The notes below the pieces were generated by a model. The model saw only the letters and a program-made list of their open reading frames with translations. It was not told the DNA's origin and searched no databases. From IMG/VR virus record IMGVR_UViG_3300049595_004909, positions 1-48,889 of that record: DNA of 48,889 bases; one strand, written 5' to 3'. The position numbers were made by a program, and so were the translations under genes. Numbering within the stretch: the stretch's first letter is position 1; each line of letters starts with the position of its first letter. Shown here piece after piece: positions 15,898 through 43,593 of this stretch. Origin of the DNA: a virus.

Positions 15898-15950
15898 TCA
15901 ACTATTTTCTTAATTTTAGAAACGGGTAATATTTGTCCAGGAGTCTAATT

Positions 15951-25505: not shown

Positions 25506-26197
25506 TAGAAATCTCAGTTGTCATACCTGCATACAATGCGGCAGGGACTCTTCGTGAGGCAGTTGTAAGTGCTCTGTCGCAGGGAGAAGAAGTACGTGAG
25601 GTCATCATTGTTGTCAATGGATGCACTGATGATACAATGAATGTTGCCGTGTCTTTAAAAGAAGAAGATGATAGAGTTTTAATCTTCGAATCTAGAAAGG
25701 GCAAAGTTCCTGCAAGAAATAAGGGATTCGCAATGGCTAGGTTTCCTTTTATCGCGCTTCTAGACGCTGATGACATCTGGCATGCAGGTAAAATTAAGAA
25801 GCAGGTGGCAGCCTTTGATGATGATATTGATATTGTAGGAACACAGATAGTCACAACAGATAAGAAGGGCACAATTTTACCAGAACAGATCACTCATCCA
25901 AGTGATCATGATCAAATTGTTTCATATCTCTTAAATGGAAGAAATTGCATAGCCAATTCAAGTGTTGTTTTTAGAAAGTCTATCTTAGACTTCATTGGAA
26001 CATACGAGGACTGCTTCCCTTTCTGCGAAGATTATCATCTTTGGATTAGAGCAATCAAGTTTGCGAGGATGAAGAACCTTCCTGACAGGCTTGTAACCTA
26101 TAGGTTTGAGCACAGTCCTGCATATGACCCACAAATTGCCATGGCATTATCAACCTTCTATAAGTCGCTGTATGCTTATACGGGTGTCATAAGATGA
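25502..26197 (+). CDS. GT2 family glycosyltransferase
   Basis: A 231-residue GT-A enzyme: ISVVIPAYNAAGTLREAVVSALSQ, VNGCTDDT, GKVPARNKGFAMARFPFIALLDADDIW (the DDD metal site), and CEDYHLWIRA in the acceptor region (ED-Y). All core GT2 motifs are present and length is normal. It overlaps both neighbours by four bases, so translation is coupled. Confidence 0.88.
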   Translation: MIEISVVIPAYNAAGTLREAVVSALSQGEEVREVIIVVNGCTDDTMNVAVSLKEEDDRVLIFESRKGKVPARNKGFAMARFPFIALLDADDIWHAGKIKKQVAAFDDDIDIVGTQIVTTDKKGTILPEQITHPSDHDQIVSYLLNGRNCIANSSVVFRKSILDFIGTYEDCFPFCEDYHLWIRAIKFARMKNLPDRLVTYRFEHSPAYDPQIAMALSTFYKSLYAYTGVIR

Positions 26198-27000
26198 TTG
26201 ATGTTATAGTTTTTTCTAAGAATCGTCCTCTCCAGCTTTACGCACTACTAGAGTCGATGCTTTCTTTTACTGATGCTGGTCAAGTTGCGCAAGTTTCTGT
26301 TATCTACTCGTATGATGATGAGTACAGCTCCGCTCTTGATGAGGTAAAAAAGAAATTTGAAGGAATAACCTTCATCAAGCAGACAAATTTCAAAAGAGAT
26401 GTTGCAACTGCTCTCTTTGCCAGCACCAATGATTTTTGTACATTTTTAGTTGATGATATTGTCTTCAAAAATACGATATCACTTGGCAACATAGTTGAGC
26501 TATTGAAGAACAATCCCGGATTGCTAACTTATTCGATGAGAATGGGTCTTCATCTTAACTTTTGCTACCCGACAGACAAAATCCAACCCATCCCAGATGG
26601 AAGCATTATTAGTCAGACATTTGTTTGGAATTGGACGAATGCACAAGGTGACTGGAGTTATCCACTTTCTCTTGATGGACACGTCTTTAAAAAGTCTGAT
26701 GTGATGACATGGACTTCAAAGATTAACTTCAATAATCCAAACCAGCTTGAAGATTTTATGCAGCATGCAAAGACACAAGGCTTATCACAGCATTGTGCGT
26801 GTCATGTGTTTTCATCCATTGTCAACATGCCAATCAACCGTGTGCAAAATGAATATGCTAATCGATGTGGTGAAGTAGATCCATCAAAGTTACTAGAAGT
26901 TTGGAGTAGCGGTAAGAAGATCGATATTGGGCACACGTTCAAGATCATCAATGAATCAGCACATTATCCTGTCAACATAAAGATCGTGGATCGTGAATGA
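26194..27000 (+). CDS. Putative GT-A glycosyltransferase
   Basis: A 268-residue protein with N-terminal MIDVIVFSKNRPLQLYALLESML, and CTFLVDDIVFK as a likely DxD metal site. The C-terminal part has a His/Cys-rich segment (SQHCACHVF). It resembles uncharacterised GT2-like proteins of phage and capsule loci. It is coupled on both sides by ATGA overlaps. The donor is unknown. Confidence 0.65.
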   Translation: MIDVIVFSKNRPLQLYALLESMLSFTDAGQVAQVSVIYSYDDEYSSALDEVKKKFEGITFIKQTNFKRDVATALFASTNDFCTFLVDDIVFKNTISLGNIVELLKNNPGLLTYSMRMGLHLNFCYPTDKIQPIPDGSIISQTFVWNWTNAQGDWSYPLSLDGHVFKKSDVMTWTSKINFNNPNQLEDFMQHAKTQGLSQHCACHVFSSIVNMPINRVQNEYANRCGEVDPSKLLEVWSSGKKIDIGHTFKIINESAHYPVNIKIVDRE

Positions 27001-27845
27001 AAGAAACAGTTAACCTACACCTCGCCTCGCTGCATAGAGGCCCAGGGCGTGTCGCAGAAAATCTTATTGTAGGCCTGCAAAAGAAAGGCATAGATGTTAC
27101 TGCATGTGATGAGCCTCGCAAAGGTGTCTACCAAGGGTGCCTCCAGGCAACAGCCGCCATTAAGTCTATAGATGGCAACACTCTGATGGGACCTAACCTA
27201 TTTGTGCTACCCTCAGAGTGGGGTGACTACACAAAGAAGTTCAATCATTTTGTCGTTCCAAGCCTGTGGGTCAAGAACAAGTATCTAGAATTTGACAGCA
27301 TGCAGCATGCGTCAATCGATGTTTGGCCCGTGGGCATTGCTACGGATATCTGGAATAGAAAGGATCCCGTTTCTAATAAGACGGCGCTAATTTACTTCAA
27401 AAATAGACAGCAGCATGAGCTTGACGCTGTTAAAGAATCGTTGAAATCGCTAGGATGGAACTACAACATACTCACGTATGGCTCATATGAAGAGAAAGAT
27501 CTGTTTGAGGCATGCCAGGTGGCACAATTTTGTGTCATTCTGACCAACACAGAGTCTCAAGGAATTGCCTACATGCAGATCTTATCAATGAATGTTCCTT
27601 GCCTTGTATTTAACAAAAACACGTGGAATAATGAAGGTAGGTACAAACATGTTCCTGCTACTAGCGTCCCTTATTTTGATCACAGCTGCGGCCTTATAAA
27701 GGACGCCATTTCTAACGAAGACATCGAAGAATTCACTAGACAGTATCAAAATTTTTCACCAAGATCCTTCATAGTTGAAAATTTCAACTTAGAGAAGCAG
27801 GCACAAGAGTACATGACATTACTTAGAAGGTATCAAAATGTCTAA
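26997..27845 (+). CDS. Putative GT-B (GT4-like) glycosyltransferase
   Basis: A 282-residue protein. The N-terminal LHLASLHRGPGRVAENLIVGLQKKGI is a GT-B acceptor-domain start. VVPSLWVKNKY and the C-terminal CVILTNTESQGIAYMQILSMNVPCLVF correspond to the E(x7)E-like donor region, although the second Glu of the usual motif is not clear. It is shorter than typical GT4 enzymes (about 370). It overlaps the next gene by eight bases. Confidence 0.65.
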   Translation: MKETVNLHLASLHRGPGRVAENLIVGLQKKGIDVTACDEPRKGVYQGCLQATAAIKSIDGNTLMGPNLFVLPSEWGDYTKKFNHFVVPSLWVKNKYLEFDSMQHASIDVWPVGIATDIWNRKDPVSNKTALIYFKNRQQHELDAVKESLKSLGWNYNILTYGSYEEKDLFEACQVAQFCVILTNTESQGIAYMQILSMNVPCLVFNKNTWNNEGRYKHVPATSVPYFDHSCGLIKDAISNEDIEEFTRQYQNFSPRSFIVENFNLEKQAQEYMTLLRRYQNV

Positions 27846-28641
27846 TCTGGTAAGCACGATCACATCGTGTTACAAAATGAAAGATTATTTGCTTCCGTTT
27901 CTTAACAACCTACCCAATCAAGTCGCGTTTGATAGATTACAGGTTGTTCTTGATCACAATGAGCCGGATGAAGAAGAAGTTTCCTGGATAGAACAGTTTA
28001 ACAAGAAATATCCTGGAAAGATCAAGCATATGATCAAAGATAAGGTGGTACCATATGGCATGTCTGTCAATGAGTGCATAAGAAATGCTGATGGTGATTA
28101 CCTGACAATTTGGAATATCGATGACACGCGAACATTTGACAGTATTGCTTCTCAAGCTCAAATTTTCGACAATGACCAAACCATCGACATTGTCAATGGT
28201 AGCTTTATCATAACCAACAAGTTTGATCTGAGATGGGGCAAGTTAGTAGATCACAGCCACCACCCAAGATCAGAATATCTCAGAAGCATGATTTTGGGCC
28301 CTTTCTTTATGTTTAGAAAGTCGCTAATAGAAAAATGCGGCTATTTTGATGAACAGCTTAAAAGCGGTGCAGATTTTGACTTTGCAATCAGAGCAGCTTA
28401 CAATTCTAATAAAATCGGGTACTCAAAATCAATTTTAGGATACTATCTTGATGAAGGTAAAGGACTATCAACAAGAGGTGATGGCTTACAAGAAACTGAG
28501 CGCACTGTAATAGAATTGAGATATGAAATTTTAGATAAAGTTGATCATCGATTTGTTGAAGCAGCGAGCAAATATGATATTAAGAATGTAAATGTCTTAG
28601 GTAAGAAGCTGCCTGCAGTCAACTATGTGAGGAACAAGTGA
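27838..28641 (+). CDS. GT2-like glycosyltransferase
   Basis: A 267-residue GT-A type protein: LVSTITSCYKMKDYLLPFLNNL, YGMSVNECIRNADGDYLTIWNIDDTR (IDD in place of DxD), FFMFRKSLIEKCGYFDEQLKSGADFDFAIRA as the acceptor-side loop. Motifs are complete enough for an active enzyme. The stop overlaps the GTG of the next gene. Confidence 0.78.
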   Translation: MSNLVSTITSCYKMKDYLLPFLNNLPNQVAFDRLQVVLDHNEPDEEEVSWIEQFNKKYPGKIKHMIKDKVVPYGMSVNECIRNADGDYLTIWNIDDTRTFDSIASQAQIFDNDQTIDIVNGSFIITNKFDLRWGKLVDHSHHPRSEYLRSMILGPFFMFRKSLIEKCGYFDEQLKSGADFDFAIRAAYNSNKIGYSKSILGYYLDEGKGLSTRGDGLQETERTVIELRYEILDKVDHRFVEAASKYDIKNVNVLGKKLPAVNYVRNK

Positions 28642-29519
28642 AGTTTATTGCGCTAATCCCGTTTAAGAATGAAGAAAGATTTTTGCCAACTTGCTTATCG
28701 AGCATCGTTGATGTTGTTGATGAAATAATCTGTGTTGACGATGGATCGACAGATAGGTCTAGAGAGATTGCTGAGAGCTTTGGGTGCAAAGTTCATCAAA
28801 ATGATCAACTAAGAGAATTTGGATGGTCTGAGCATCACATACGCCAGACATTGCTGAATCTTGGAAGGAAAGCAGGCGGAACGCATTTTTTATGCCTCGA
28901 TGCTGATGAAGCTTTAACATACCAGTTTGGCATTACATGTCGTTTTGTCTTGCCCATGCTAAAGCCGGGTTTCAATGCGAGAATGCAATGGCTTGCCTTG
29001 TGGAAAAGCCCCCACCATTTTAGACATGATAGATCTGTTTGGAGCAATAATTTTAAGGATTTCATATTTGCAGATGATGGGATCTGTAGTTACAAGTACG
29101 AGTTCATGCATGTTTCTAGGACACCTGTAACAAATAATGAAATCACGCTGAATCCAGAAATGGGTGCCGTTCTTCATTATCAATTTGTTGATTGGGAAAA
29201 TTTTAACATAAAGCAGGCAGATTACAGGTGCTCTGAGCTAATCAATGAACCTGGCAACTTCTTCAACATAAATCAAAAATACTCTATAACTTTTGAAAGA
29301 GATGACGTCTACTTACATGAAGTGCCTGAAGAGTGGCTGCTGAACATCAAGCAGCCAGATTTTGTGTCTAATCTAAAAGATTGGCGTAGAGACAGAATAA
29401 CATCATTTTTTAGAGATAAAGGCCCTGAGTTTTTTGAACCCCTTGACATATGGCACATAGAATCTCTACGTGAAGAGTTTAAAAATATGACAGGTAGGTA
29501 TCCAAGGAGCTCAAGGTGA
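28638..29519 (+). CDS. GT2 family glycosyltransferase
   Basis: A 293-residue protein starting at GTG (28638), overlapping the previous TGA. It has KFIALIPFKNEERFLPTCLSSIVDVVDEIICVDDGSTDRS and LCLDADEA (DxD), the core of the GT2 family close to lipopolysaccharide core transferases. The C-terminal half contains many aromatic residues. Ribosome binding is probably by GTGAGG just upstream. Confidence 0.85.
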   Translation: MKFIALIPFKNEERFLPTCLSSIVDVVDEIICVDDGSTDRSREIAESFGCKVHQNDQLREFGWSEHHIRQTLLNLGRKAGGTHFLCLDADEALTYQFGITCRFVLPMLKPGFNARMQWLALWKSPHHFRHDRSVWSNNFKDFIFADDGICSYKYEFMHVSRTPVTNNEITLNPEMGAVLHYQFVDWENFNIKQADYRCSELINEPGNFFNINQKYSITFERDDVYLHEVPEEWLLNIKQPDFVSNLKDWRRDRITSFFRDKGPEFFEPLDIWHIESLREEFKNMTGRYPRSSR

Positions 29520-31243
29520 TTAAAGTCGCGTGTGTAAAATTTGGAGGACTCGCAACTGGAGGTACAGAAAAGCTCCTACAGTCAATAGCAGCCTATTTGC
29601 CAAAAGACCAGTTTGATGTAACATTTTTCTACTGCGATTCAGCACCATACATCGGATCAAACTGGGTTCATCCCGACACAGACCCAGAACGTCTTAAATT
29701 CTTGCAGGATCATAACGTCAAGCTAAAGAAGTTTCATGTTGGTGCAAAAGATGTGACTCACCCGCATCACATGTGGATCGATAGTAATTTCTTTGAGATC
29801 TTTAATGAAGATGATTATGACATCATACAGACAGCACGCGCAGGACATACAGAATATCCATTTACTTTAATTAATCGGACACCAATCGTCGATGCAATTA
29901 CTCTGCCAGGCATGGCAGAAGATAAGATAAACATCAAGTCAGTTTTTCATATTAGCAAGTACCAGGCAATGACATGGGTTAACGCAGGCGGCCCAATTAG
30001 AAAAGCTGTGATACTTCCCATCTTCCAGAATCTTAATAAGTCCTCTAAGAGCTTAAGAGAAGAGCTAGAAATTCCTGAAGATGATTTTGTGTTTGGCTTC
30101 CATCAAAGAGTCGATGATGGAATTGCAACATCAATTGCTTTGCAAGCCTATAAAAGAATACAAAATGACAAGACACACTTTGTCGTCATGGGCGGTAGTA
30201 AAAACTACACAGAATTTGCCAAAAGCATCAACTTGCTTAATTTCAAGCAAATCCCACACTCAGGAAATGAAGAAGACATTAGTCAATTTTTGAATACACT
30301 TGATGTATTTTGTCATAATCGTGCTGATGGTGAAACTTTTGGTGCAGTAATTTCTGAAGCGCTGTTTCATGGATTGCCTGTCATATCACATTATGCACCC
30401 GCACTAGGACAAATTGAAACTGTCGGACCTGCAGGCTTCATTTGTTCAAATGAACTAGAATATGCAGATGCAATGACGAGATTGATGATAGATGATGATC
30501 TTTACCAGCGATTGTCTGTGCTAGCTGTTAATCACTATGACAAGAACTACACAACTGAGTCGTGCATGAAGACAGTTGTTTCTACATACAAGAGAGTTTA
30601 TAGAAAGTTCTTGACAAAAAAGCGATCAAGCTACGATGCACACAATTCTGAGTACATCGAAGAAGGAAAGTTTGAGAAAGAGCTGGCAATGCACCTGGAA
30701 AACACTAAAAATCGTGTTCAATATAACCCTGATATGACGTTAGGTCTCATGCTTGATAATTCTGAAGTAAAGATCGGTGTCGATATTGGGTCTGGAACAG
30801 GGTGGTGTGCCAGTCTGATGTCAAATAAACTAGATCATGTTTATGCAATCGAGCCTTCTAAAGCAGCTATTGAAATTGCTAACAAGATTTATCCTAGAGT
30901 AGAAAACATCACATGGATCAATAGATTTGCTTGTGAAGGTCTAGACCAGATCGAGCTTAACGAGCCCGCGATCTTTAATGCATCATGCGTGCTTAGCCAC
31001 CTTGAAGATGCTGACGTTGAAGCTATCTGCGCCAAGATTAATAAGATGTCTAAGCCTGGTTCATATCTAAGTTTTTCTGAGTGCCATGGAAATTACTTCA
31101 ATGACATAGAAAACTTATGGCACGTCAGACCTGAAGCGTGGTGGCAATCTAAGTTCCCATCTTGGCGTTTTTATTTCAATAGTCACACAATTAATCACCC
31201 ACAAGGTGCTAAAAAAGGGTTTTGGGCGGTGAAGGCGGCATAA
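29516..31243 (+). CDS. Glycosyltransferase-methyltransferase fusion
   Basis: A 575-residue protein starting at GTG (29516). Residues 1-360 are GT4-like: KFGGLATGGTEKLLQSIAAYLP, FGFHQRVDDGIATSIALQAY, and NRADGETFGAVISEALFHGLPVI (E-x7-E donor motif). From about residue 418 a class I SAM methyltransferase begins: IGVDIGSGTGWCASLM (SAM motif I), HVYAIEPSKAAIEIA, and a C-terminal KPGSYLSFSECH strand. The enzyme may add a sugar and then O-methylate the glycan as a capping step. It is coupled at both ends. Confidence 0.8.
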   Translation: MIKVACVKFGGLATGGTEKLLQSIAAYLPKDQFDVTFFYCDSAPYIGSNWVHPDTDPERLKFLQDHNVKLKKFHVGAKDVTHPHHMWIDSNFFEIFNEDDYDIIQTARAGHTEYPFTLINRTPIVDAITLPGMAEDKINIKSVFHISKYQAMTWVNAGGPIRKAVILPIFQNLNKSSKSLREELEIPEDDFVFGFHQRVDDGIATSIALQAYKRIQNDKTHFVVMGGSKNYTEFAKSINLLNFKQIPHSGNEEDISQFLNTLDVFCHNRADGETFGAVISEALFHGLPVISHYAPALGQIETVGPAGFICSNELEYADAMTRLMIDDDLYQRLSVLAVNHYDKNYTTESCMKTVVSTYKRVYRKFLTKKRSSYDAHNSEYIEEGKFEKELAMHLENTKNRVQYNPDMTLGLMLDNSEVKIGVDIGSGTGWCASLMSNKLDHVYAIEPSKAAIEIANKIYPRVENITWINRFACEGLDQIELNEPAIFNASCVLSHLEDADVEAICAKINKMSKPGSYLSFSECHGNYFNDIENLWHVRPEAWWQSKFPSWRFYFNSHTINHPQGAKKGFWAVKAA

Positions 31244-31991: not shown

Positions 31992-32984
31992 ATGATATTA
32001 ATCACAGGTGTCGCAGGCCTCATGGGATCACGTCTAGCTGATTGGATCCTTAAAAATACTAACCATAGGGTTATTGGTATCGACAACCTATCAGGCGGGT
32101 ACATTGAGAATGTTCCTAAAGATGTCATCTTTTATAAAAATGATTTAGTCAATGACGTTGACATTATTAAGAAGATATTTTCTGATCATAAGATCGATAC
32201 AGTTTATCACTTAGCAGCTTATGCTGCTGAGGGCCTCTCACCTTTTATTAGAAAGTTCAACTATGAGACAAACGTCATTGCATCGATGAACCTAATCAAT
32301 GCATCTGTCCAAACAGGTGTTAGACGATTTGTTTTTACGAGCTCGATGGCTGTTTATGGAAATCAAACAGAACCGCCATTTAGCGAAGACTTGACACCAT
32401 GTCCCATAGATCCATACGGCATTGCTAAATACTGTGTTGAAATGGATCTAAAAGTTGCATGCCAACATCACGGTCTTGATTATACAATCATCCGACCTCA
32501 TAACTTTTATGGGGAGAACCAAAATATTTGGGACAAGTATCGCAATGTTTTAGGAATCTGGATGTTGCAGATAATGAATAGTCAATCCCCCACAATTTAT
32601 GGTGATGGTCAACAGACACGAGCCTTTAGCTATGTTGATGATTCTTTAATGCCACTGTGGAAAGCATCACAGCTTGATTCTTGCAAGTCTCAAATTATCA
32701 ACTTAGGCGGTATAAAAAGCTACAGCATTAATGAAGCGTGTGACATACTGCGAGATGTTACAGGCACCAGATTAAAGCCCATCCACCTTGAAGAACGACA
32801 CGAAGCAAAGCATGCCTGGTCTACTTGGGAAAAGTCTGAGAAGTTACTTGACTTTAAGCATGAAATAGATCTTCATGATGGTCTAACTAGAATGTGGAAT
32901 TGGGCACAAATTCAACCCAATCGACCTATCAAAAAGTGGTCTTCATACGAAATTGACCGAGACATTTACAGCTATTGGAAGTAA
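31992..32984 (+). CDS. NAD-dependent epimerase/dehydratase (UDP-glucose 4-epimerase-like)
   Basis: A 330-residue extended SDR. It has ILITGVAGLMGSRLADW (NAD-binding GxxGxxG), VYHLAAYAAEG, FTSSMAVYG (Ser), YGIAKYCVE (YxxxK), IIRPHNFYGENQ and ADDS-like YVDDS. It probably interconverts or dehydrates a nucleotide sugar for the locus. The exact substrate is not clear from motifs. GAGAAG upstream is the ribosome binding site. Confidence 0.85.
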   Translation: MILITGVAGLMGSRLADWILKNTNHRVIGIDNLSGGYIENVPKDVIFYKNDLVNDVDIIKKIFSDHKIDTVYHLAAYAAEGLSPFIRKFNYETNVIASMNLINASVQTGVRRFVFTSSMAVYGNQTEPPFSEDLTPCPIDPYGIAKYCVEMDLKVACQHHGLDYTIIRPHNFYGENQNIWDKYRNVLGIWMLQIMNSQSPTIYGDGQQTRAFSYVDDSLMPLWKASQLDSCKSQIINLGGIKSYSINEACDILRDVTGTRLKPIHLEERHEAKHAWSTWEKSEKLLDFKHEIDLHDGLTRMWNWAQIQPNRPIKKWSSYEIDRDIYSYWK

Positions 32985-32985
32985 C

Positions 32986-33741
32986 ATGTTTTCAATCGGT
33001 ATCGTAACATACGAAGCAAGATTTGAAAAGTTCTTCATGCCCTTGCTTCACAGTATTAAGGTTACAAATCCAAACGTAGAAGTCATTGTCTGCATTAACG
33101 GCAGCCACAATAAGAATTTTGACGAGTCTTATAGGTCAAAGATGTGTCAATTTTTAAGCAATTATAACAATGTTTTTCCCATGTTCTGGACACAATTTAG
33201 ATCTTTGTCAAAACTTTGGAATAACATATTAATTAATTCGAGCAATGACAATGTTTTAGTTTTAAATGATGACGTTACGATACACGATCCGAACGTGTGG
33301 AGCTACGTCAACCAAGGAATTGAGCTAGCACAAGGGCAGTCGTTTAAGATCAATGAGATGTGGAGCTTTGTATGTCTTAATAGACGTGAAATTGATGCAG
33401 CAGGCTGGTTCGATGAGCGACTATTAGGAATCGGTGAAGAAGACGGTGATATGGAATACAGGCTTTGTGAAATTAAAGGCTTGAGTAAATTTCCTTCAAT
33501 CAACGGCTACCCAATAGTCAACCACTCGTCAGAAGATGGAAATCAATCTAATACAAGAACACATCTTGGTAGGTACAATACGTTTAATCGTGACTTCATA
33601 CACCAAAAGTATAGAATTGACCAGAAGGGCGTTGTTAGAGGAAATACATGCGGCGACGGTCAACCTCGATTGATTGTTGATCCATCTCCACCGCAGTACC
33701 TTTGTGAGAAATTCTACTGGGATAACAAGGATAAGCTATGA
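32986..33741 (+). CDS. GT2-like glycosyltransferase
   Basis: A 251-residue protein; the ATG at 32986 follows GGAAG and is preferred to an in-frame start at 32953 inside the epimerase gene. It shows FSIGIVTYEARFEKFFMPLLHSIK, VLVLNDDVTIHDP (DD metal site), and WFDERLLGIGEEDGDMEYRL (ED acceptor motif). These fit a GT-A glycosyltransferase. The stop overlaps the GDP-fucose-synthase-like gene. Confidence 0.75.
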   Translation: MFSIGIVTYEARFEKFFMPLLHSIKVTNPNVEVIVCINGSHNKNFDESYRSKMCQFLSNYNNVFPMFWTQFRSLSKLWNNILINSSNDNVLVLNDDVTIHDPNVWSYVNQGIELAQGQSFKINEMWSFVCLNRREIDAAGWFDERLLGIGEEDGDMEYRLCEIKGLSKFPSINGYPIVNHSSEDGNQSNTRTHLGRYNTFNRDFIHQKYRIDQKGVVRGNTCGDGQPRLIVDPSPPQYLCEKFYWDNKDKL

Positions 33742-34658
33742 AGACATTAATCACAGGTGCCTCTGGATTACTCGGAAGTGAGGTAATGTCATTGTCTCCA
33801 GGTTCAGTGGGCCTTAATTCGAAATACTGTGACCTCACTAGCCCAGGTCAACTGAGGCTTCATCCAAATGGCAAATTCGATACTGTCATTCACTGCGCAG
33901 CTAGAGTGGGTGGTGTGAAAGCAAACACTGACTTTGTCGCAGAATTTTTCGATGATAATGTTCGAATAAACATGAATGTCCTTGAGGCCTGCAAGCATGA
34001 CGGTCTCAAGCTCGTTTCAGTTCTTTCCACTTGTATCTACCCAGACGCACCATATGTGAAGTACCCACTCACAGAAGATCAGCTTCACATGGGACCCCCA
34101 CACACATCAAACTTTGGTTACGCTTACGCAAAGAGAATGCTGGAGATTCAGAGCAGAGCCTATCGTCAGCAGTTCGGTTGTAACTTTATCTCCGTGATTC
34201 CTAACAATCTCTACGGCCCTAACGACAACTACGACCTCGATAGTGGTCATGTTATTCCAGCATTGATTAGAAAGTTTCATGAGGCAAAAATCAATAAGCA
34301 AAAAGAAGTCGTCATATGGGGCACAGGAAAACCTCTAAGAGAATTTACTTTTTCACGTGACGCAGCAAAGATCATACTTTGGCTCGCAGAGAACTACAAT
34401 GGCGAAAAGCCCGTTAATATTGGCAACCCAGAACAAGTTTCGATTGAAAGTTTAGCTCTCGCAATCTCAGGAGAGATGAGATTTTCTGGCACTATAAGAT
34501 TTGATAACACGAAGCCCGATGGTCAGTTTAAGAAGCCATCATCAAATTCTTATTTAAGATCTTTAGGGTGGAAAGGAGAATACACACCGCTCCGAGACGG
34601 TCTTAAAGAGACCATTGAGACGTTTCTATCACGTTATCCTAATGTTAGAGGCATGTAA
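33738..34658 (+). CDS. fcl: GDP-L-fucose synthase
   Basis: A 306-residue SDR with family-specific motifs: LITGASGLLGSE, CAARVGGVKANTDF, LSTCIYPD, YAYAKRMLEIQSRAYRQQ (YxxxK), PNNLYGPNDNYD, SGHVIPALIRKFHEA, WGTGKPLREF and a DNTKPDGQFKK tail motif. It converts GDP-4-keto-6-deoxymannose to GDP-L-fucose. The partner dehydratase Gmd is encoded 3.7 kb downstream. Length is normal (about 310-320). Confidence 0.9.
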   Translation: MKTLITGASGLLGSEVMSLSPGSVGLNSKYCDLTSPGQLRLHPNGKFDTVIHCAARVGGVKANTDFVAEFFDDNVRINMNVLEACKHDGLKLVSVLSTCIYPDAPYVKYPLTEDQLHMGPPHTSNFGYAYAKRMLEIQSRAYRQQFGCNFISVIPNNLYGPNDNYDLDSGHVIPALIRKFHEAKINKQKEVVIWGTGKPLREFTFSRDAAKIILWLAENYNGEKPVNIGNPEQVSIESLALAISGEMRFSGTIRFDNTKPDGQFKKPSSNSYLRSLGWKGEYTPLRDGLKETIETFLSRYPNVRGM

Positions 34659-34698: not shown

Positions 34699-35805
34699 AT
34701 GAATATCGTAGTTCCAATTGTTGGAATAGGTAAACGCTTTTTGGACGCAGGCTACGAAAAACCTAAGCCACTGATTAGCGTTAGATCCAAACCAATTGTC
34801 CAGCACGCTGTAGAAAGCTTTGGCGTCGACGGAAAGTACATTTTTATCATCAGAAAATCTGATTTTTATGACGAACTAAAATTTTTGCTTCTCTCAATGA
34901 AGCCAAATTGCGTAATTGTAGAAACAGATACTATGACTGAGGGATCAGCATCCTCTATTTTGCTCGCCAAGTCATATATTGATAATGATGAAGAGCTGAT
35001 TACGATCAACTGCGATCAAAGAACCGACTGGCACCCACAAGAATTTTTAGATTTTTGTAGGTTATGTGACGCTGATGGTGTTGTTGGAACTTACCCGTAT
35101 GACGGCATCGTTAGAAACGAGCATAGTCCTTATAGCTTCATTGAACTTGACAGTAAAGGAAACGCTGTACGTCTCGAAGAGAAGTTTGCAATATCAGATC
35201 ATGCACTTTGTGGAATCCACTATTGGCGTAAGGGTAGCGACTTTGTTAGTTCTGCTGAAGAAATGATCAGAAACAACGACAGAATTAACAATGAATTTTA
35301 TGTGTCAAAAACATACAACTATTTGATTAAAAATCATAAAAAGATCAAGAATTATACGCTTGGAAAAGGTCAATTCTTTTCTCTCGGGACACCAGACGAC
35401 ATCAAGAAGTTTAATGGCATCCAGAATGAATTTAGAAAAGTTAAACCTGCAACAATTTTTTGCGACCTTGATGGAACAATAATGAAGCATGTTCACTCAT
35501 TCTCAGAAGTAACATTTGCGAAACCAGAGCTATTGCCCGGCGTTAGAGAAAAATTTGATGAATGGGACTCGCAAGGTAACAGGATCATTCTGGTTACGGC
35601 AAGAAAAGAGAGTGCTAGAGAGATAACAGAGCGTCATTTAAGAGAGCTAGGAATTCCATACGACCAATTAATCATGGGTGTTGCATCTGGGTGCCGCATT
35701 TTGATCAATGATATGATTTTTGAGAACGAAGAGCGGGCTAAGTCTGTAAACGTTATCACAAATCATGGTTTTATTGATACTAACTGGGAAAATTACGGTC
35801 TCTAA
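34699..35805 (+). CDS. Sugar-phosphate nucleotidyltransferase-HAD phosphatase fusion
   Basis: A 368-residue two-domain protein. Residues 1-240 are a nucleotidyltransferase of the capsule type: NIVVPIVGIGKRFLDAGYEKPKPL (in place of GxGxR), ITINCDQRTDW (metal-binding Asp), and ALCGIHYWRKGSDF. From about residue 254 a HAD domain follows: FCDLDGTIM (DxDGT motif I), VTARKES (motif II), and a later GCRILINDM segment (motif III region). Such fusions activate a dephosphorylated or unusual sugar. It begins the subcluster that includes the RuBisCO-like protein. Confidence 0.8.
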   Translation: MNIVVPIVGIGKRFLDAGYEKPKPLISVRSKPIVQHAVESFGVDGKYIFIIRKSDFYDELKFLLLSMKPNCVIVETDTMTEGSASSILLAKSYIDNDEELITINCDQRTDWHPQEFLDFCRLCDADGVVGTYPYDGIVRNEHSPYSFIELDSKGNAVRLEEKFAISDHALCGIHYWRKGSDFVSSAEEMIRNNDRINNEFYVSKTYNYLIKNHKKIKNYTLGKGQFFSLGTPDDIKKFNGIQNEFRKVKPATIFCDLDGTIMKHVHSFSEVTFAKPELLPGVREKFDEWDSQGNRIILVTARKESAREITERHLRELGIPYDQLIMGVASGCRILINDMIFENEERAKSVNVITNHGFIDTNWENYGL

Positions 35806-35806
35806 T

Positions 35807-36127
35807 ATGAAGTTATCGAACATAAGCGAAATGACACGTGGTTGGTTTATTGGAAATTTTGAACCGTCTATTTTAAAAACAAAAGATTTTGAAGTTGGCG
35901 TGATGTCTCATAAGAAGGGTGAATATTGGGCACCTCACATCCATAAGGAAGCAATCGAATACAATCTTTTGTTAGATGGATTAATGAACGTGAATGATGT
36001 GATTATTGAGCCAGGAACAATTTTTATCTTTGACAAGGGCGAGATAGCACGACCTATCTTCTTAGAAGATTGTAGAGTCTTAGTCGTAAAGACCCCATCA
36101 ATTCCAGGAGACAAATATGTCGTTTAA
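35807..36127 (+). CDS. Small cupin-like protein
   Basis: A 106-residue protein; ATG 35807 is one base after the previous stop. It shows a single-domain cupin layout: GEYWAPHIHKEAIEYNLLLDG (metal-type His-x-His) and VIIEPGTIFIFDKGEIARP. Cupins in glycan loci are often isomerases or epimerases. The 3' end overlaps the RuBisCO-like gene by 11 bases, so the two are coupled and probably work in one pathway. Confidence 0.7.
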   Translation: MKLSNISEMTRGWFIGNFEPSILKTKDFEVGVMSHKKGEYWAPHIHKEAIEYNLLLDGLMNVNDVIIEPGTIFIFDKGEIARPIFLEDCRVLVVKTPSIPGDKYVV

Positions 36128-37304
36128 TATTTTCAAGGATTATGTTAATGAACATGATTACATAATTGTTGACTACTTCTTAGAGTCAAAAACTAATCTT
36201 TGTGATGCTGCATGGAATCTTGCAATTGGACAAAGTGTCGGCAACCCAAACGTTAGAAATAGCTGGGAGACAGATTCTCTATTTGAGAATCACTCTGCAT
36301 TGGTGCTAGGACAAGAATCGCAGCTTATGGCACAGAAATCGGGCAACGTCAAGATCGCTTTTCCTGTCATCAACATAGATTTCACATCTGATGGTGTGAG
36401 CCACTTGTTGTGCACAATTATGGGTGGTCAACTTGACATTGATTTGATACAAAAATGTCATGTTCTTAATGTGACGTATCCTGATGTGGTTAAGAAACAC
36501 TTTTTAGGGCCAAAATTTGGAATTAGCGGAATTAGAAGCTTCACGGGAGCTTTTGATAAGCCGCTTTTAGGTGGAATTGTCAAGCCAAAGATCGGCATTA
36601 GACCCGATGTGCTGCTTGAGATGGTAAAGGAGATGGTCGAGGGTGGCGTTAACTTCATCAAAGAGGATGAGATCATGTCAAATCCGCAGTTTTGCACGAT
36701 TGAAGAGCGTGTCCCTCTGATTATGGACTATCTAAAAGATAAGAAAGTCATATACGCAGTTTGCATTAATGCTGATCCTGCACATATTCTTGATCGCGTC
36801 AGACAAGTCTACAAGCTTGGTGGCAATGCAGTTCACATCAACTTTTGGAGCGGGCTAGGTGTGTATAAGTCGGTTAGAGAGCTTGATCTACCCATTTTTA
36901 TGCATTTTCAAAAGAGCGGTGACAAGATTTTGACTAATAAAAACCATGATTATCATATTGACTGGGACGTTATCTGCCAGCTTGCAACAATGATGGGAGC
37001 AGACACGATCCACTCAGGCATGTGGGGCGGTTATATGAGTGACAACGAGGATGATCTAAAGAAGACGCTTGACATTCTTGTTAAAGGAAATACTCTGCCA
37101 GCATTGAGCTGTGGAATGCATCCAGGCTTGGTCGGTGCGATTAATTCTCGTTTTGGTGTAGATTATATGGCAAATGTCGGTGGTGCAATGCACGGTCACC
37201 CAGGTGGCACCAGAGATGGCTCTAGAGCAATGCGTCAAGCAATCGACAATAATCATGGTCCTGAGTACGATACGGCAATCGAAAAGTGGGGATTAGTAAA
37301 ATGA
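36117..37304 (+). CDS. RuBisCO-like protein (form IV type)
   Basis: A 395-residue protein with both RuBisCO large-chain domains. The N-terminal part has DYFLESKTNLCDAAWNLAIGQS. The barrel starts GPKFGISGIRSFTGAFDKPLLGG, then IVKPKIG (Lys156 and Lys158, RuBisCO K175/K177). The carbamate-metal triad is kept: Lys182, Asp184, Glu185 (K201/D203/E204). His263 and His299 match H294/H327. Changed: R295 becomes Phe264 and loop-6 K334 becomes Tyr306. Ser331 (S379) and the GG phosphate site are kept. It is therefore not expected to fix CO2; an enolase, isomerase or decarboxylase reaction on a sugar-derived substrate is more likely. CAGGAG precedes the ATG. Confidence 0.9.
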   Translation: MSFNIFKDYVNEHDYIIVDYFLESKTNLCDAAWNLAIGQSVGNPNVRNSWETDSLFENHSALVLGQESQLMAQKSGNVKIAFPVINIDFTSDGVSHLLCTIMGGQLDIDLIQKCHVLNVTYPDVVKKHFLGPKFGISGIRSFTGAFDKPLLGGIVKPKIGIRPDVLLEMVKEMVEGGVNFIKEDEIMSNPQFCTIEERVPLIMDYLKDKKVIYAVCINADPAHILDRVRQVYKLGGNAVHINFWSGLGVYKSVRELDLPIFMHFQKSGDKILTNKNHDYHIDWDVICQLATMMGADTIHSGMWGGYMSDNEDDLKKTLDILVKGNTLPALSCGMHPGLVGAINSRFGVDYMANVGGAMHGHPGGTRDGSRAMRQAIDNNHGPEYDTAIEKWGLVK

Positions 37305-37915
37305 AGTGGCAAGAAGATCTTTTAATTGATATTAGAACTAGCACACCTGATGATGATAATGACTTTCCATTTGGTGATCTTCTTGAATTGATGCAGTGTG
37401 TAAGTAATGAGTTTTCAATTGACAATCACTATGCTTTACAACACGCCATTAATCTTTGCAAGAACACGCCGCGTGTCTTTGTAGAGATCGGTGTTCACAG
37501 AAACGATGATAAGTCTTCAACTCATACAATTCTCAAGAATCTTCCCCAGGATGGAATTTATTTAGGGATTGACATCGAAGATAAGACTTTCTTAGATGAT
37601 CCTGCTAGAGGAATACACACCATCAAGACTAGTTCATCTAACTACGCTGTTGTTGTTAATAAGCTAAAAGACCTAGGATGTGATCAAATTGACTTTCTAT
37701 TCATTGATGGGTGGCATAGCATCAACCAAGTCTTAGATGATTGGGAGTATACCCGTATTCTATCACCTGGCGGTGTTGTAGCTTTTCATGATACAACAGC
37801 TCATCCAGGTCCTCATTATTTTATGAAGCAACTAAATCGTGGCACGTGGCACGTGTTTGAAAATGTCTGTCCTAATGATAATGGATTTGGCTATTGCTAC
37901 TTAAGAGATAGCTGA
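37301..37915 (+). CDS. Class I SAM methyltransferase-like protein
   Basis: A 204-residue protein starting ATG 37301 (ATGA overlap). RVFVEIGVHRNDD corresponds to SAM motif I, GIYLGIDIEDK to motif II, and DQIDFLFIDGWHSINQVLDDWEYTRILSPGGVVAFHDTT is characteristic of the Methyltransf_24/cephalosporin-hydroxylase-like group. It may O-methylate a glycan residue. Coupling to the RuBisCO-like gene suggests the same pathway or product. Confidence 0.75.
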   Translation: MKWQEDLLIDIRTSTPDDDNDFPFGDLLELMQCVSNEFSIDNHYALQHAINLCKNTPRVFVEIGVHRNDDKSSTHTILKNLPQDGIYLGIDIEDKTFLDDPARGIHTIKTSSSNYAVVVNKLKDLGCDQIDFLFIDGWHSINQVLDDWEYTRILSPGGVVAFHDTTAHPGPHYFMKQLNRGTWHVFENVCPNDNGFGYCYLRDS

Positions 37916-38373
37916 TGATCATCATAGCTCATCGAGGCAACACTAGCGGACCTAATAAAGCAAGGGAAAATCATCCTAGCTATATTGATGAAGCAATTAA
38001 TGACGGCTTTGACGTAGAAGTAGATGTCTGGGTAATTGATGACAAAATCATGTTAGGTCATGATGGACCTGCGCACCATGTTGATATAGAATTCTTAGAA
38101 AAAATAGCAGATAAAGCATGGTTCCATTGCAAGAACCTAAAAGCATTAAGGTCATTGAGTGAAACAAATTTCAGGTATTTCTGGCATCAAAGTGATGACT
38201 TTACTCTGACATCAACAAATCATATTTGGACATACCCGAATAAAGATCTAACTGATAGATCGATCGCTGTAATGCCTAAAAATTATGAATCAGTTGCAAG
38301 TCTTGACATATACGGCATCTGCACAGATGACTGTTTACAACTGCAAGCCTTTATGAAGAAAAATCGCCTATAA
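37915..38373 (+). CDS. Glycerophosphodiester phosphodiesterase-like protein
   Basis: A 152-residue protein coupled by one base to the previous gene. It has [37 protein letters not shown] and LGHDG: the catalytic His and metal EVD motif of the GDPD/PI-PLC-like barrel. It is shorter than typical GDPD (about 240-300), a compact form seen in capsule loci. It may hydrolyse a phosphodiester in a lipid or glycan. Confidence 0.75.
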
Positions 38374-38402: not shown

Positions 38403-39374
38403 ATGAAGACTGCATTGATCACAGGTGTAACAGGTCAAGATGGCTCTTATCTTGCTGAATTATTAATAGAAAAGGGATACAAAGTCGTGGGAATGAAGAG
38501 GCGGACCTCACTTCTCGCAACTGATCGAATTGACCACCTTCTCGACCATCCTAACTTCCAGCTTGTCTATGGATCTATGAATGATGCTGGTGCCTTCTAT
38601 CGACTCTTTGCCAATCAGAAGTTCGACGAGGTCTACAATCTTGCAGCTCAATCTCACGTAAGAGTCTCATTTGAGGTTCCTGAGGAGACTGTTGACGCAG
38701 TCGCAATGGGACCTCTTAGATTGTTGGAGTGCATCAGGACAATGCAACCACAATGTAGATTCTACCAGGCATCCTCCTCTGAGATGTACGGAGATAATCC
38801 TGAACATCCACAGAGCGAGGAGACCCGCCTCATGCCGGCTTCTCCTTATGCCTGTGCCAAAGTCTTTGCACACGGTCTCACACGCAACTATCGAGAGGGA
38901 TACGGAATCCACGCATCTTCCGGCATCCTCTTCAATCACGAGAGCCCTCGCCGCGGTGAGACGTTTGTCACACGTAAGATCACCCTAGCTGCAGCGCGTA
39001 TCAAGCTCGGCCTGCAAGACAAGATCGCACTCGGCAACCTCGATGCTCTTCGCGACTGGGGATACGCCAAGGACTATGTCGAAGCAATGTGGCTGATGCT
39101 TCAACAGGATAAGCCTGATGACTATGTGGTTGCAACTGGAGAAACTCATACAGTTCGTGAGTTCTTAAATGAGGTCTTTGAAATTGCTGAACTAGACGTT
39201 GATCGACACCTTGTTATTGATGATCGTCTAAGGCGACCACACGAAGTTCCGTGGCTTGAGGGAGATTACACGAAGGCTAGAGACCGCCTTGGTTGGACAC
39301 CAAAGACCACATTTAGAGGTCTTGCCAGATTAATGTACATGGCTGATTTAAGTCTTCTGGAGACAAAGAGATGA
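38403..39374 (+). CDS. gmd: GDP-mannose 4,6-dehydratase
   Basis: A 323-residue SDR with GMD signatures: [57 protein letters not shown] (YxxxK), [42 protein letters not shown] and [12 protein letters not shown]. It makes GDP-4-keto-6-deoxymannose, the substrate of the GDP-fucose synthase at 33738. The middle part (38500-39100) is somewhat higher in GC than its neighbours. It has ATGA coupling to the next gene. Confidence 0.95.
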
Positions 39375-40339
39375 GCATCGCAGTTGTAGGACAAGGATTT
39401 GTGGGTGGCAGTTTAACATCTGTCTTTGCAGAACGCGGAGAGACAGTTTTTGTCTATGACAAGGCTGGCAAGACTGCTCCGGGCGGGATCTGTGAATTTA
39501 AGAGAAGTGACAGCTCATTCATCAAGCCTGATTCGCTTACGCAATTTGTAAGAGAATGTGAAGCAACATCGGGCTTTACAGGCATATTCTTTGTCTGTGT
39601 CCCGACGCCTATGTACGAAGATGGTTCACCAGACGTTTCAATAGTCCTGGACGTTCTCGAGCTAATAGCGGCTGCACCATACGCATCAGACTCACCAGAA
39701 AGAATTGCTGTTATCAAATCAACAGTTCCACCGGGGTCAACACAAAGATGGAATCAAGACTTCAATGATCGTGGATTGCACATTGTCTTTAATCCAGAGT
39801 TTTTGACAGAAGCAAACGCTGTAAACGACATGCGCGAGCAGAATCGAATAGTTCTAGGTGGTCCAAGACCTTACATCAACACAGTCCGAAATGTCTTTAT
39901 GCGGGCCTTCCCAAAGGTGCCTATCATAAAGACAAGCTCAACCACAGCTGAGATGGTGAAATATACGACAAATTGTATGCTTGCAGTCAAGGTTGCCTTT
40001 GCTAATGAGGTCTCGCAGATTTGTGAAATGCTCGACAGAGACGGTTTAAACGTCGATTACGACAAGGTAGTTGAATATATCAAATTTGATAAGCGTCTAG
40101 GCGAAACACACTGGTCCGTTCCTGGACCTGTTCCGACAAATGATGGTCGCTATGTCAAGGGGTTTGGCGGTCATTGCTTTCCTAAAGATATTAACGCCTT
40201 GATTAGCGTTGCTAGAGGTTATGATATTAAGCCCATTGTTATGCGTGCTGCATGGGAAAAGAACCTTGAAGTCAGGCCTCCTGAAGATCGTGACTGGGAG
40301 AAACAAGTAGGTCGAGCAGTTAGTAAAAGAAAGAATTAG
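39371..40339 (+). CDS. UDP-glucose/GDP-mannose dehydrogenase-like protein, short
   Basis: A 322-residue protein. The N-terminal NAD site is GQGFVGGS (7-14). It also has [39 protein letters not shown] and the catalytic-cysteine motif GGHCFPKD with Cys269. Usual family members are about 390-440 residues; here the C-terminal UDP-binding domain is missing, with a clean stop rather than a visible frameshift. It would oxidise a nucleotide sugar to a uronic acid if the short form is active. Confidence 0.85.
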
Positions 40340-40354: not shown

Positions 40355-41164
40355 GTGAATAAATTCCCAACTGGCAAACCGCATATTTCTTTCTCTGAAG
40401 TCAAGATGTGGCATGAATGTGGCTGGCGTCACAAGCTTGTCCATATTGATAAAATTGATGTATTCAAGCCTGCTGAAAGTCCTAGCTTTGGAACAGCTGT
40501 GCACGAAGAGTGCGAAGAATTTCTAGAGAAAAGAACGTACAATGTCGAAAGATTAACAGAGACAATCAAGAAGACATGGGAGCAGCACAACTTCGAAAAA
40601 GTCGACGACTGGATCAATGACGGTAAAGTGATCATGTCTGAGATTGCAGATTTTCTCAACACCACGTTTCCCGACTGGTCATTTATAGCTGCAGAGCAGG
40701 CGCTATATGAACCTATCGAGGGTGAGGAAGAGATCAAGTTTAAGGGATTTGTTGACGGAATGATTCGTGCAAAGAACAAGCGCGGTCAAGATTGTCTATG
40801 GATTATTGACTGGAAGACGGCAGGTCCTCGTGGGTGGAATTCTGATAAACGTAGAGACAAGCTGGTTCTGGCTCAGCTTGCGCTTTATAAGCATTTCTGC
40901 AGTGAGAAATTCGAGATTGACCCGAAAGACATCAAGTGTGGATTCATACTTCTCAAGCGCGGCGTTAAACCAGGTAAGGCATGTGAGCTATTCGAGATAT
41001 CGACGGGCCCAAAGACACTTGAAGATGCCAAAAAGCTTGTTGATTCTATGATTAAAGGCGTTAGAGCAGGCAAGGCGATTAAAAATCGTCTATCTTGTAA
41101 GTACTGTGACTTTAAGGGAACTTCACATTGTCCTGGTTCAGGGGAATTCTCGGCATTTACTTAA
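40355..41164 (+). CDS. PD-(D/E)XK nuclease, RecB/Cas4-like, putative 4Fe-4S
   Basis: A 269-residue protein. SPSFGTAVHEECEEF (His50), a GFVDGMI Asp (134), IIDWKTA (Asp152, Lys154) and a LAQLALYKH Gln (174) form the RecB-type nuclease core. Cys22 (WHECGW) with Cys248, Cys251 and Cys259 (CKYCDFKGTSHC) gives the cysteine pattern of AddB/Cas4 iron-sulfur nucleases. There are no other cas genes. It is likely a replication or recombination exonuclease, out of place among glycan genes. The start is GTG. Confidence 0.8.
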   Translation: MNKFPTGKPHISFSEVKMWHECGWRHKLVHIDKIDVFKPAESPSFGTAVHEECEEFLEKRTYNVERLTETIKKTWEQHNFEKVDDWINDGKVIMSEIADFLNTTFPDWSFIAAEQALYEPIEGEEEIKFKGFVDGMIRAKNKRGQDCLWIIDWKTAGPRGWNSDKRRDKLVLAQLALYKHFCSEKFEIDPKDIKCGFILLKRGVKPGKACELFEISTGPKTLEDAKKLVDSMIKGVRAGKAIKNRLSCKYCDFKGTSHCPGSGEFSAFT

Positions 41165-41184
41165 TTATGCGCGGTGCTATTGTT

Positions 41185-41190
41185 TAGAAC
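41185..41190 (+). promoter_or_regulatory. -10-like hexamer TAGAAC
   Basis: TAGAAC ends seven bases before the ATG at 41198, in the context TGTTTAGAACA, similar to TGTTTAGAATA at 31966-31976. It is a weaker match than the TATAAT copies; a weak AGG lies between. Confidence 0.3.
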
Positions 41191-41197
41191 AGGTACC

Positions 41198-42442
41198 ATG
41201 AGCAAGAAAAAAGTAATCGTTTTATCTGATCACGCGTTATCAACGTCAGGTGTAGGCACACAAACTCGTCATCTCATCAATGGAATGATTGCCAAGGGTG
41301 ACTGGACATTTAGACAGTTTGGTGCTGCTATGAAACACACCGACTATCGAACTGTTGCTGTTAATGAAGACTTCATCATCAAGCCAATTGATGGATTCGG
41401 TAATAGAGACTTAATTAGAGTCACGCTTGCAGCAGAAAAACCAGATCTTCTTTTAATCTTTACAGACCCGAGATTCTTCATCTGGTTATTCGAGATGGCA
41501 GATGAAGTTAACCAGGTCTGCCCAATAGCGTGGTGGCATGTATGGGATAATCTTCCATATCCAGCGTTCAACGGACCACTGTATGAATCAACTGGTCTGT
41601 TAAACTGTCACTCTCATTTGACATACTCTATGCTCAAGGAGCGATTCCCAGATAAGACCAATTTTGTCCCACATTCTGTTCCGCCCGACCTATTTTTTCC
41701 TCTAACACAGATTGAAAGGAGAATGTATAGGAACCAGCTTCTAGGGTCAGGACGTGAGGATCATTTCGTAGGCGTCTGGATCAACAGAAATGCCCGCAGA
41801 AAGCGCCCAAGCGATGTCATAGAGTCATGGAAGATCTTTATTGATGACTTGCATACAAAGCATGGTCATAAGCGGGCAACGCTTATTATGCATACAGATC
41901 CATTGGATCAAGAAGGCCCGAATCTTTATGCAGTTGCAGATAACTTAGGCATTCAAGATAACATTGTTTTCTCTAAGGATCGTCTACCTTTTGACAAGGT
42001 GAACGTTCTCTACAACATATCAGACTTCTGCATCAACATCAGCTTTGCTGAGGGTTTTGGACTAGGAACTCTGGAGGCGATGAATGCAGGTATCCCGATC
42101 ATCGCTGCCAAGACGGGTGGATTGACCAGACAGGTTGTCGATCATCGTGATGGATCACATAACGGCGTGGCACTTGATATTGACCTTCAAACTCTTGTAG
42201 GATCACAATCTGTGCCTTATATCTACGAAGACTATGTCACAAACCAGAACGTTGCAAAAGGCATTATGCAGCTTTACTCTTTGTCTGACACCGAACGCAG
42301 AGCACTAGGGCAAAAAGTTCTCAGTTATGCAAGGTCAGAGTTTAGCTTCAACAACACTATTGATACGTGGCACAACACGGCATCACAGCTCTTGAGCACG
42401 TGGAAGCAAAATAAGAAAAACTTTACGATCAAGGAACTCTAA
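41198..42442 (+). CDS. GT4 family glycosyltransferase
   Basis: A 414-residue GT-B enzyme starting at ATG 41198. It has IVLSDHALSTSGVGTQTRHLINGM, WHVWDNLPYP, NRNARRKRPSDVIESW, and FCINISFAEGFGLGTLEAMNAGIPIIAAKTGG (E-x7-E donor motif). Length and motifs are normal for the family. The last base overlaps the ATG of the next glycosyltransferase. Donor and acceptor are unknown. Confidence 0.88.
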   Translation: MSKKKVIVLSDHALSTSGVGTQTRHLINGMIAKGDWTFRQFGAAMKHTDYRTVAVNEDFIIKPIDGFGNRDLIRVTLAAEKPDLLLIFTDPRFFIWLFEMADEVNQVCPIAWWHVWDNLPYPAFNGPLYESTGLLNCHSHLTYSMLKERFPDKTNFVPHSVPPDLFFPLTQIERRMYRNQLLGSGREDHFVGVWINRNARRKRPSDVIESWKIFIDDLHTKHGHKRATLIMHTDPLDQEGPNLYAVADNLGIQDNIVFSKDRLPFDKVNVLYNISDFCINISFAEGFGLGTLEAMNAGIPIIAAKTGGLTRQVVDHRDGSHNGVALDIDLQTLVGSQSVPYIYEDYVTNQNVAKGIMQLYSLSDTERRALGQKVLSYARSEFSFNNTIDTWHNTASQLLSTWKQNKKNFTIKEL

Positions 42443-43593
42443 TGAAAGTAATTGTTCGTGCGCCGCTTCTTAGCATTTCTGGTTATGGACAGCATAGCCG
42501 CCAGATATACGAGGCGGCTAAGCGTCTACCAAATGCGCAGGTCAGCACACAAGTTGTGCAGTGGGGAAACACATCGTGGTATGTCAACCCAGATGCTGAA
42601 GAAGGTCTCATCGGTGAGATTATGAGTCGATCGACAGATGCCAGTGAAGGCTATGACGTCTCTTTCCAAGTTCAGCTACCCGATGAATGGACACCAACTT
42701 TAGCAAAGTTTAACATAGGCGTAACTGCTGCTGTCGAAACAGATCGTTGCAATCCAGTCTGGGTAGACGCATGCAACAGGATGAACGCCGTTATTGTTCC
42801 ATCACATTTTACTCGAAAAGTTTTGATGGACACGGGCAACATTACGGTTCCTATTCATGTAGTAGGTGAATGGTACATCGATGAGATCAACCACATCAAA
42901 GATCACCTTGACGTCGACTTCAGAACACCTTTTAATTTTTTGATTGTTAGCCAGATGTCATCTCCAGATTCTTCTATCGACAGGAAGAACATTACAAATA
43001 CGATAAAGTGGATTTGTGAGACATTCAAGGATGACCCAAGTGTTGGAATTATTCTCAAGACTAACAGCGGTAGAGGCACTGATATTGATAGGCACGTTAC
43101 AGTTGCAAGCATAAACACAATCCTAGGACCAGTAAGGCAGAAGTCTAAAGTTCCTGTCTACCTGATGCATGGTAACATGACCAATGTGGAGATTGCCTCG
43201 CTGTACAGGCATCCAAAGATCAAGGCTCTAGTGAGCTTGACGAGAGGCGAAGGATTTGGCCTACCAATCCTTGAAGCCTCAGCATCTGAGCTTCCAGTTA
43301 TAGCCACAGATTGGTCGGCCCATGTAGAATTTATGAATCTAGGCAAGTGGATCAAGATTGAGTCGAACAAGACAACCATACCGGATTCTAGAGTCGACAA
43401 TAGGATATTCATGCCAGGCGTCCAGTGGGCAGATCCAAGTGAGCAGGACTTTAAGAAGAAGATCAAAAAGTTTAGAGATTCTCATGTCGTGCCCAAGGGA
43501 TGGGCAACAGAGCTCGCTTCTGTCTGCAAGACACGGTACACAAAAGAGAGTATTCTTGAAGATTATAGAAAGCTTTTCAATGAGATCTTGTAA
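42442..43593 (+). CDS. GT4-like glycosyltransferase
   Basis: A 383-residue GT-B protein with VIVRAPLLSISGYGQHSRQIYEA, VPSHFTRKVLMDTG, and VSLTRGEGFGLPILEASASELPVIATDWSAH (E-x7-E motif). It is coupled at both ends by one-base overlaps. It closes the glycan locus before the late structural genes. Confidence 0.87.
   Translation: MKVIVRAPLLSISGYGQHSRQIYEAAKRLPNAQVSTQVVQWGNTSWYVNPDAEEGLIGEIMSRSTDASEGYDVSFQVQLPDEWTPTLAKFNIGVTAAVETDRCNPVWVDACNRMNAVIVPSHFTRKVLMDTGNITVPIHVVGEWYIDEINHIKDHLDVDFRTPFNFLIVSQMSSPDSSIDRKNITNTIKWICETFKDDPSVGIILKTNSGRGTDIDRHVTVASINTILGPVRQKSKVPVYLMHGNMTNVEIASLYRHPKIKALVSLTRGEGFGLPILEASASELPVIATDWSAHVEFMNLGKWIKIESNKTTIPDSRVDNRIFMPGVQWADPSEQDFKKKIKKFRDSHVVPKGWATELASVCKTRYTKESILEDYRKLFNEIL

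Follow-up and report, generated by a model that had tools for sequence, protein, structure and literature searches.

What does a homolog of RuBisCO do among the glycan genes of a phage? The question is raised by an ATG-started reading frame for a RuBisCO superfamily protein in IMG/VR virus record IMGVR_UViG_3300049595_004909, whose 48,889 nucleotides are referred to here as the window (Table 1). The reactions so far ascribed to RuBisCO-like proteins (RLPs) are few and belong to catabolic or salvage pathways. A sequence-only reading of the window had described the protein as a full-length, phage-borne, non-carboxylating RuBisCO homolog in a glycan locus, possibly with a new biosynthetic role.

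Table 1. Positions of the RLP gene, its neighbors, and other annotated features of the window.
Positions	Strand	Feature	Remarks
15933..17261	+	PhoH-like phage gene	PHROGs
23676..31243	+	GT2/GT4-like glycosyltransferase run	Includes one GT-methyltransferase fusion
31992..32984	+	SDR sugar epimerase/dehydratase	Glycan context
33738..34658	+	GDP-L-fucose synthase-like SDR	Glycan context; below NCBIfam cut-off
34699..35805	+	Sugar-1-phosphate-type nucleotidyltransferase (NTase) fused to HAD-like phosphatase	NTase, residues 1-240; HAD-like part, residues ~250-345
35807..36127	+	Cupin	~106 aa; stop overlaps RLP start
36117..37304	+	RuBisCO-like protein (RLP)	395 aa
37286..37915	+	CmcI/rhamnosyl O-methyltransferase-like	Between RLP and GDPD-like gene
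37915..38373	+	Compact GDPD-fold phosphodiesterase-like	152 aa; phrog_34507 (unknown function)
38403..39374	+	GDP-mannose 4,6-dehydratase	Glycan context; above NCBIfam cut-off
39371..40339	+	Nucleotide-sugar dehydrogenase	Glycan context; TIGR03026 above cut-off, shorter than model
40355..41164	+	PD-(D/E)XK / phage exonuclease	PHROGs
41174..43593	+	Two GT4-type glycosyltransferases	

Membership in the RuBisCO superfamily is clear from the match to RuBisCO_large model PF00016, which scores 116 bits (cut-off 30.1; E-value 2.6e-33); the N-domain model PF02788 gave a sub-threshold 17.3 bits. Among solved structures, MtnW enolases and form III RuBisCO are closest in sequence, with E-values of about 1e-39 to 1e-36. 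An AlphaFold2 model of the RLP, for which the input alignment consisted of the window and locus proteins (mean pLDDT 88.6), has as its top PDB match the form III RuBisCO of Pyrococcus horikoshii, 2d69 (E-value 3e-32, TM 0.87 to the query), followed by MtnW 2oem (TM 0.83), while a search of a viral structure library returned no close RuBisCO match. On these grounds the protein is full length, in agreement with the earlier description.

The PhoH-like and exonuclease genes, with the surrounding sugar genes and glycosyltransferases, bear out the placement of the RLP gene in a phage-borne glycan locus. A gp25-like baseplate protein at 47098-47568 is a weak, sub-threshold match, and the reading frame at 10326-11624 shows a weak match of 51 bits to the phage GroEL-like family phrog_5725. 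Positions 1-1000 have a GC content near 0.65, against about 0.40-0.49 over most of the window, which may mark an atypical or a chimeric contig end.

A first scan for relatives of the RLP yielded 20 loci in viruses, with identities of 48-71%, and a profile scan of IMG/VR found relatives encoded on 348 stretches. The best 80 of these 348 were retained, and 74 distinct viral RLP loci served for counts of neighboring genes. So many independent viral contigs, taken together with the phage genes of the window, rule out contaminating bacterial DNA as the source of the gene. The RLP is thus phage-encoded, as claimed, but it is not confined to phages: a scan of about 85,000 cellular genomes detected 13 RLP loci, the carriers being SAR11 single cells, an alphaproteobacterium, Azospirillum oleiclasticum, two Bacteroidota assemblies and one Patescibacteria assembly. 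Viral contigs may account for some of these assemblies. In one SAR11 locus, L029, the RLP gene is flanked by ordinary cellular genes, which from their translations we take to be thyX, nadA, and mrp. An RLP is carried by 2 of 397 genomes from the SAR11 order and 1 of 385 from the class of Azospirillum. Isolated phages in INPHARED yielded no RLP match, and PHROGs has no family for it. A plasmid search with the Azospirillum RLP found nothing above 60% identity; most of the 25 places listed, at 27-31% identity, carry annotations for other groups of RuBisCO or RLP.

Viral and cellular RLPs form a single clade (38 sampled sequences, bootstrap/aLRT 100/100, stem branch 0.92) that lies outside forms I, II, II/III, and III and outside the MtnW, OiaX-like, and IV-Photo groups. 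The Chlorobium-type IV-Photo group, recognized by a 972-bit match to 1tel (the L168 group), branches elsewhere. The phylogeny that the sequence-only reading had proposed as a check therefore places the protein in neither the methionine-salvage nor the OiaX clade. Viral and cellular sequences interleave within the clade, so the gene has probably moved between phages and cells. The OiaX-like group is a weakly supported sister, with an aLRT of 79 in a quick tree and values of 70/49 in a careful one. Near MtnW in the tree lies a separate Bacteroidota RLP family (L199-L218) of proteins about 370-425 residues long; His takes the place of the metal ligand Glu204 in 10 of 10 sampled members.

Active-site residues were mapped by profile-profile comparison with hhalign, both to true RuBisCOs and to OiaX-like RLPs, and in a 92-row alignment. 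The RuBisCO residues K175, K177, K201, D203, E204, and H327, which include the metal and carbamate site, are retained in the window RLP as K156, K158, K182, D184, E185, and H299, and counterparts of the first five occur in all 38 clade members sampled. By contrast with what a CO2-fixing enzyme has at these sites, E60 is replaced by Gly, N123 by Gly, H294 by Gln, and K334 by Tyr in 38 of 38 sequences (G38, G104, Q265, and Y306 in the window), and three further changes are equally without exception: T65 to Asn (N43), W66 to Pro (P44), and G380 to Cys (C332). The loss of essential carboxylation residues with retention of the metal site makes the protein a form IV RLP, broadly defined. The earlier residue list fares well for the Lys/Asp/Glu triad and Lys156, on which both types of alignment agree, and for the replacement of the loop-6 Lys by Tyr306, invariant in the clade; it overlooked the substitutions at E60, T65, W66, N123, and G380. 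Its assignment of Phe264 to the position of Arg295 finds no support and was probably an alignment slip. Both hhalign comparisons set Q265 opposite H294 and K266 opposite R295, so that Lys266 is most likely the counterpart by alignment, although a pairwise phmmer alignment to MtnW would permit F264 there and the site is formally ambiguous.

Read through the established RuBisCO mechanism, these residues suggest that the metal and carbamate center that forms the enediolate is intact and that the residues acting after enolization in CO2 fixation have been lost. The protein nonetheless has the PF00016 match, the RuBisCO metal site, and a K177 counterpart as in true RuBisCOs, and viral genes called rbcL are listed in PMC12607003 as auxiliary metabolic genes. 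That the RLP is a true CO2-fixing RuBisCO of this kind we regard as extremely unlikely, given the four replaced residues, a placement outside forms I-III with full support, RuBisCO equivalog model scores of 168.6, 157, and 101 against 497, 438, and 489, and a conserved neighborhood in which no phosphoribulokinase was seen. The earlier view that the protein does not carboxylate is supported.

The weak sister relationship brings up a different possibility, that the RLP is a 3-oxo sugar-acid phosphate decarboxylase resembling OiaX, supplying a shortened or branched sugar for an NDP-sugar. Decarboxylation, too, would need an enolate-stabilizing metal site. The residue pattern runs the other way, however: E60, K334, and R295 are present and K177 is absent in OiaX-like proteins, whereas the RLP clade shows the opposite. 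The score to the OiaX model NF042437 is 141.8 against a cut-off of 700, and the conserved cassette described below includes no gene of a tetronate or apionate pathway. We consider a decarboxylase unlikely.

The phosphate-site residues T65, W66, and G404 are altered in the clade, and N43, P44, and R47 are new invariants. These changes, and a very tight linkage to the NTase gene, would fit an RLP that has a non-phosphorylated substrate, such as a nucleotide-sugar, or that serves as a non-enzymatic subunit of a complex with the NTase or cupin. Against this, the conserved metal site, K156, K158, K266, and the conserved G333/G355 argue for catalysis on an anionic substrate, and we hold such a role to be improbable.

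The genes surrounding the RLP gene are conserved well beyond the window. Among the 74 distinct viral loci, an NTase gene is present in 72, a gene for the GDPD-like protein in 66, a cupin gene in 58, and all three in 50. The partners are almost always on the same strand as the RLP gene and within a few kilobases, and the commonest order, NTase-cupin-RLP-GDPD, is found in 39 loci. Cellular RLP loci, those of SAR11 and Azospirillum included, have the same neighbors. For the window's cupin, the reading frame was listed from 35765, but its relatives and the NTase stop favor the ATG at 35807. Its invariant residues H58, H60, and E65 (numbered on the 120-aa reading frame) make up a His-x-His...Glu motif; matches to Cupin_7 and Cupin_2 are confined to some of its relatives. 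A search centered on the cupin found an RLP in 77 of the 80 best viral loci, making the cupin nearly RLP-specific among the best matches. The pairing of cupin and RLP anticipated by the sequence-only reading is therefore real, but the cupin, which several SAR11 loci and 16 of the 74 viral loci lack, is a less constant partner than the NTase or the GDPD-like protein. Four SAR11 loci (L028, L029, L030, and L031) have no detectable cupin and have a second, divergent NTase on the opposite flank of the RLP.

For the GDPD-like protein, Pfam gave no reliable identity, and the assignment was made by fold comparison; its invariant residues are H6-R7, E35, D37, H49-D50, and K73. It is not specific to the RLP, as it also accompanies fusions of NTase to HAD and to RpiB and, in locus L349, NeuB-like and PseF-like genes. 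It is a common, unexplained helper of varied phage nucleotide-sugar cassettes (the window, L311, L328, L349, and L371). The O-methyltransferase-like gene of the window is not conserved in other RLP cassettes and is accessory.

In the window, RLP, HAD, and cupin are contiguous, the cupin keeps its His-x-His...Glu motif, and MtnW, like the RLP, has Gly at E60. These features recall a methionine-salvage-like branch in which an MtnW-like RLP would yield an enediol phosphate, an MtnX-like HAD would dephosphorylate it, and an acireductone dioxygenase-like cupin would cleave the product. Several results make this unlikely, and somewhat less probable than a decarboxylase or a non-phosphorylated substrate. 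The HAD part is absent from the NTase relatives in most RLP cassettes, and HAD genes were detected in 10 of 88 RLP loci examined, on which count the HAD was rejected as a general member of the cassette. The conserved NTase would be left with no role. MtnW model scores are far below cut-off (TIGR03332, 142.1 against 513.6 bits; NF007095, 170.4 against 409 bits), the RLP retains K177 and H327, which MtnW does not, and the matches obtained with the cupin profile are quercetinase and Cupin_2 chains, not acireductone dioxygenase. With the HAD so rare and the NTase the constant partner, an equation of RLP, HAD, and cupin with MtnW, MtnX, and MtnD was rejected as the main model.

Related cassettes without an RLP offer a further view of its possible place. 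In 52 of 58 distinct RLP-less loci the NTase carries a fused HAD or RpiB-type isomerase, as compared with 6 of 121 RLP-bearing loci. The fused domains are of three types: a beta-phosphoglucomutase-family HAD (80.9 bits, below the cut-off of 153), a second HAD type, and an RpiB/LacA/LacB-type isomerase (100.9 and 104.9 bits, above the cut-off of 88.3). Two NTase-RpiB/LacA/LacB fusions (L371:5757-6923 and L376:6530-7687) adjoin the same cupin family and a GDPD-like gene. The contrast gives a Fisher p of about 3e-31 for loci that were drawn by similarity queries rather than at random. On the NTase tree there are at least 8 changes of RLP state and three independent pairs on well-supported branches; once relatedness is counted the replacement pattern is not significant, and we keep it as suggestive. 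The window has both a HAD fusion and an RLP, as do five other RLP loci. HAD and RpiB fusions where the RLP is missing fit an RLP that fills the sugar-phosphate-converting slot.

From the fold, clade, residues, and cassette we infer the chemistry, its outcome, and its product, and on balance we favor a Mg2+- and carbamyl-lysine-dependent enolase that isomerizes or epimerizes a ketose phosphate for NDP-sugar synthesis. A ketose phosphate would be deprotonated to an enediolate on the metal held by K182, D184, and E185, and reprotonation at another carbon would give an isomer or epimer. The sugar-1-phosphate-type NTase would then convert the RLP product to an NDP-sugar, from which glycosyltransferases of the contig could build a glycan, on a phage-modified host envelope or as virion decoration. 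The cupin, probably metal-holding, would presumably carry out a further isomerization or anomer step. A general helper role would fall to the compact GDPD-fold protein, and the HAD fused to the window's NTase may remove or move a phosphate. Known RLPs (MtnW and the Rhodospirillum RLP) catalyze enolization or proton-transfer isomerization on ketose 1-phosphates. In PMC12663927, RLPs are termed isomerases. Counting against an isomerase is the closest large outgroup, the OiaX-like group (weakly, at 70/49), whose characterized member is a decarboxylase. The fuller proposal, in which the RuBisCO fold is put to a new biosynthetic use and the phage RLP converts a central ketose phosphate to an undescribed sugar phosphate that the NTase activates for glycan decoration, is put forward more tentatively.

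Hundreds of uncultured phages, then, carry an RLP in a small cassette whose probable product is an unusual activated sugar that would go into coating glycans. If so, a biosynthetic role would be added to those of the RLPs, and the extent to which the enolization chemistry of the fold has found new uses would become apparent. The cassette has three to four genes, and the reaction is therefore directly testable in vitro. Automated pipelines enter viral rbcL as an auxiliary gene for CO2 fixation (PMC12607003), a role that is very unlikely for this clade. Because the clade has lost CO2-fixation residues and sits in a sugar cassette, viral "RuBisCO" genes need checking before they are read as evidence of carbon fixation.

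Among known systems, the best structural match is form III RuBisCO of P. horikoshii (2d69/2cwx), which shares K175, K177, K201, D203, E204, and H327 with the RLP but differs in K334, E60, N123, and H294 and belongs to another clade. MtnW (2,3-diketo-5-methylthiopentyl-1-phosphate enolase; 2oej/2oem, 4nas, 2zvi) shares the fold and metal triad and has likewise lost E60 and K334, and enolization is presumed for the RLP as well; it differs in its separate clade, its lack of K177 and H327, and its neighbors, the RLP being found beside NTase, cupin, and GDPD-like genes rather than methionine-salvage genes. OiaX-like, or IV-nonphoto, RLPs (3nwr; NF042437, 3-oxo-isoapionate-4-phosphate decarboxylase) share superfamily and metal site but form a separate branch, each group at 100/100. 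They occur in catabolic contexts, unlike the phage RLP in its NDP-sugar cassette. The phage NTase-HAD and NTase-RpiB fusion cassettes (for example, L311, L371, and L376) have the same NTase family and GDPD-like partner, and use a beta-phosphoglucomutase-family HAD or an RpiB-type isomerase in place of the RLP.

Two sets of prior reports come closest. The available text of PMC1821046 describes 65 RuBisCO homologs outside known groups from Global Ocean Sampling, and that of PMC10173188 names a metagenome-only RLP group, IV-GOS, marine and uncharacterized; neither genomic context nor host appears in these texts. The clade reported here may equal or overlap IV-GOS, as marine viral contigs and SAR11 commonly carry its members. 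For landfill phages and IMG/VR, the accessible part of PMC12607003 lists viral rbcL for CO2 fixation and groups one landfill viral protein with "RbcL-like" proteins; these are phage-borne members of the RuBisCO family, as is the RLP, with CO2 fixation assigned, in that part of the report, without analysis of cassette, clade, or active site. Neither the RuBisCO fold nor the concept of a form IV without carboxylation is novel. Set against the openly licensed literature, a large phage-centered clade with an invariant active-site signature and a nucleotide-sugar cassette appears to be new.
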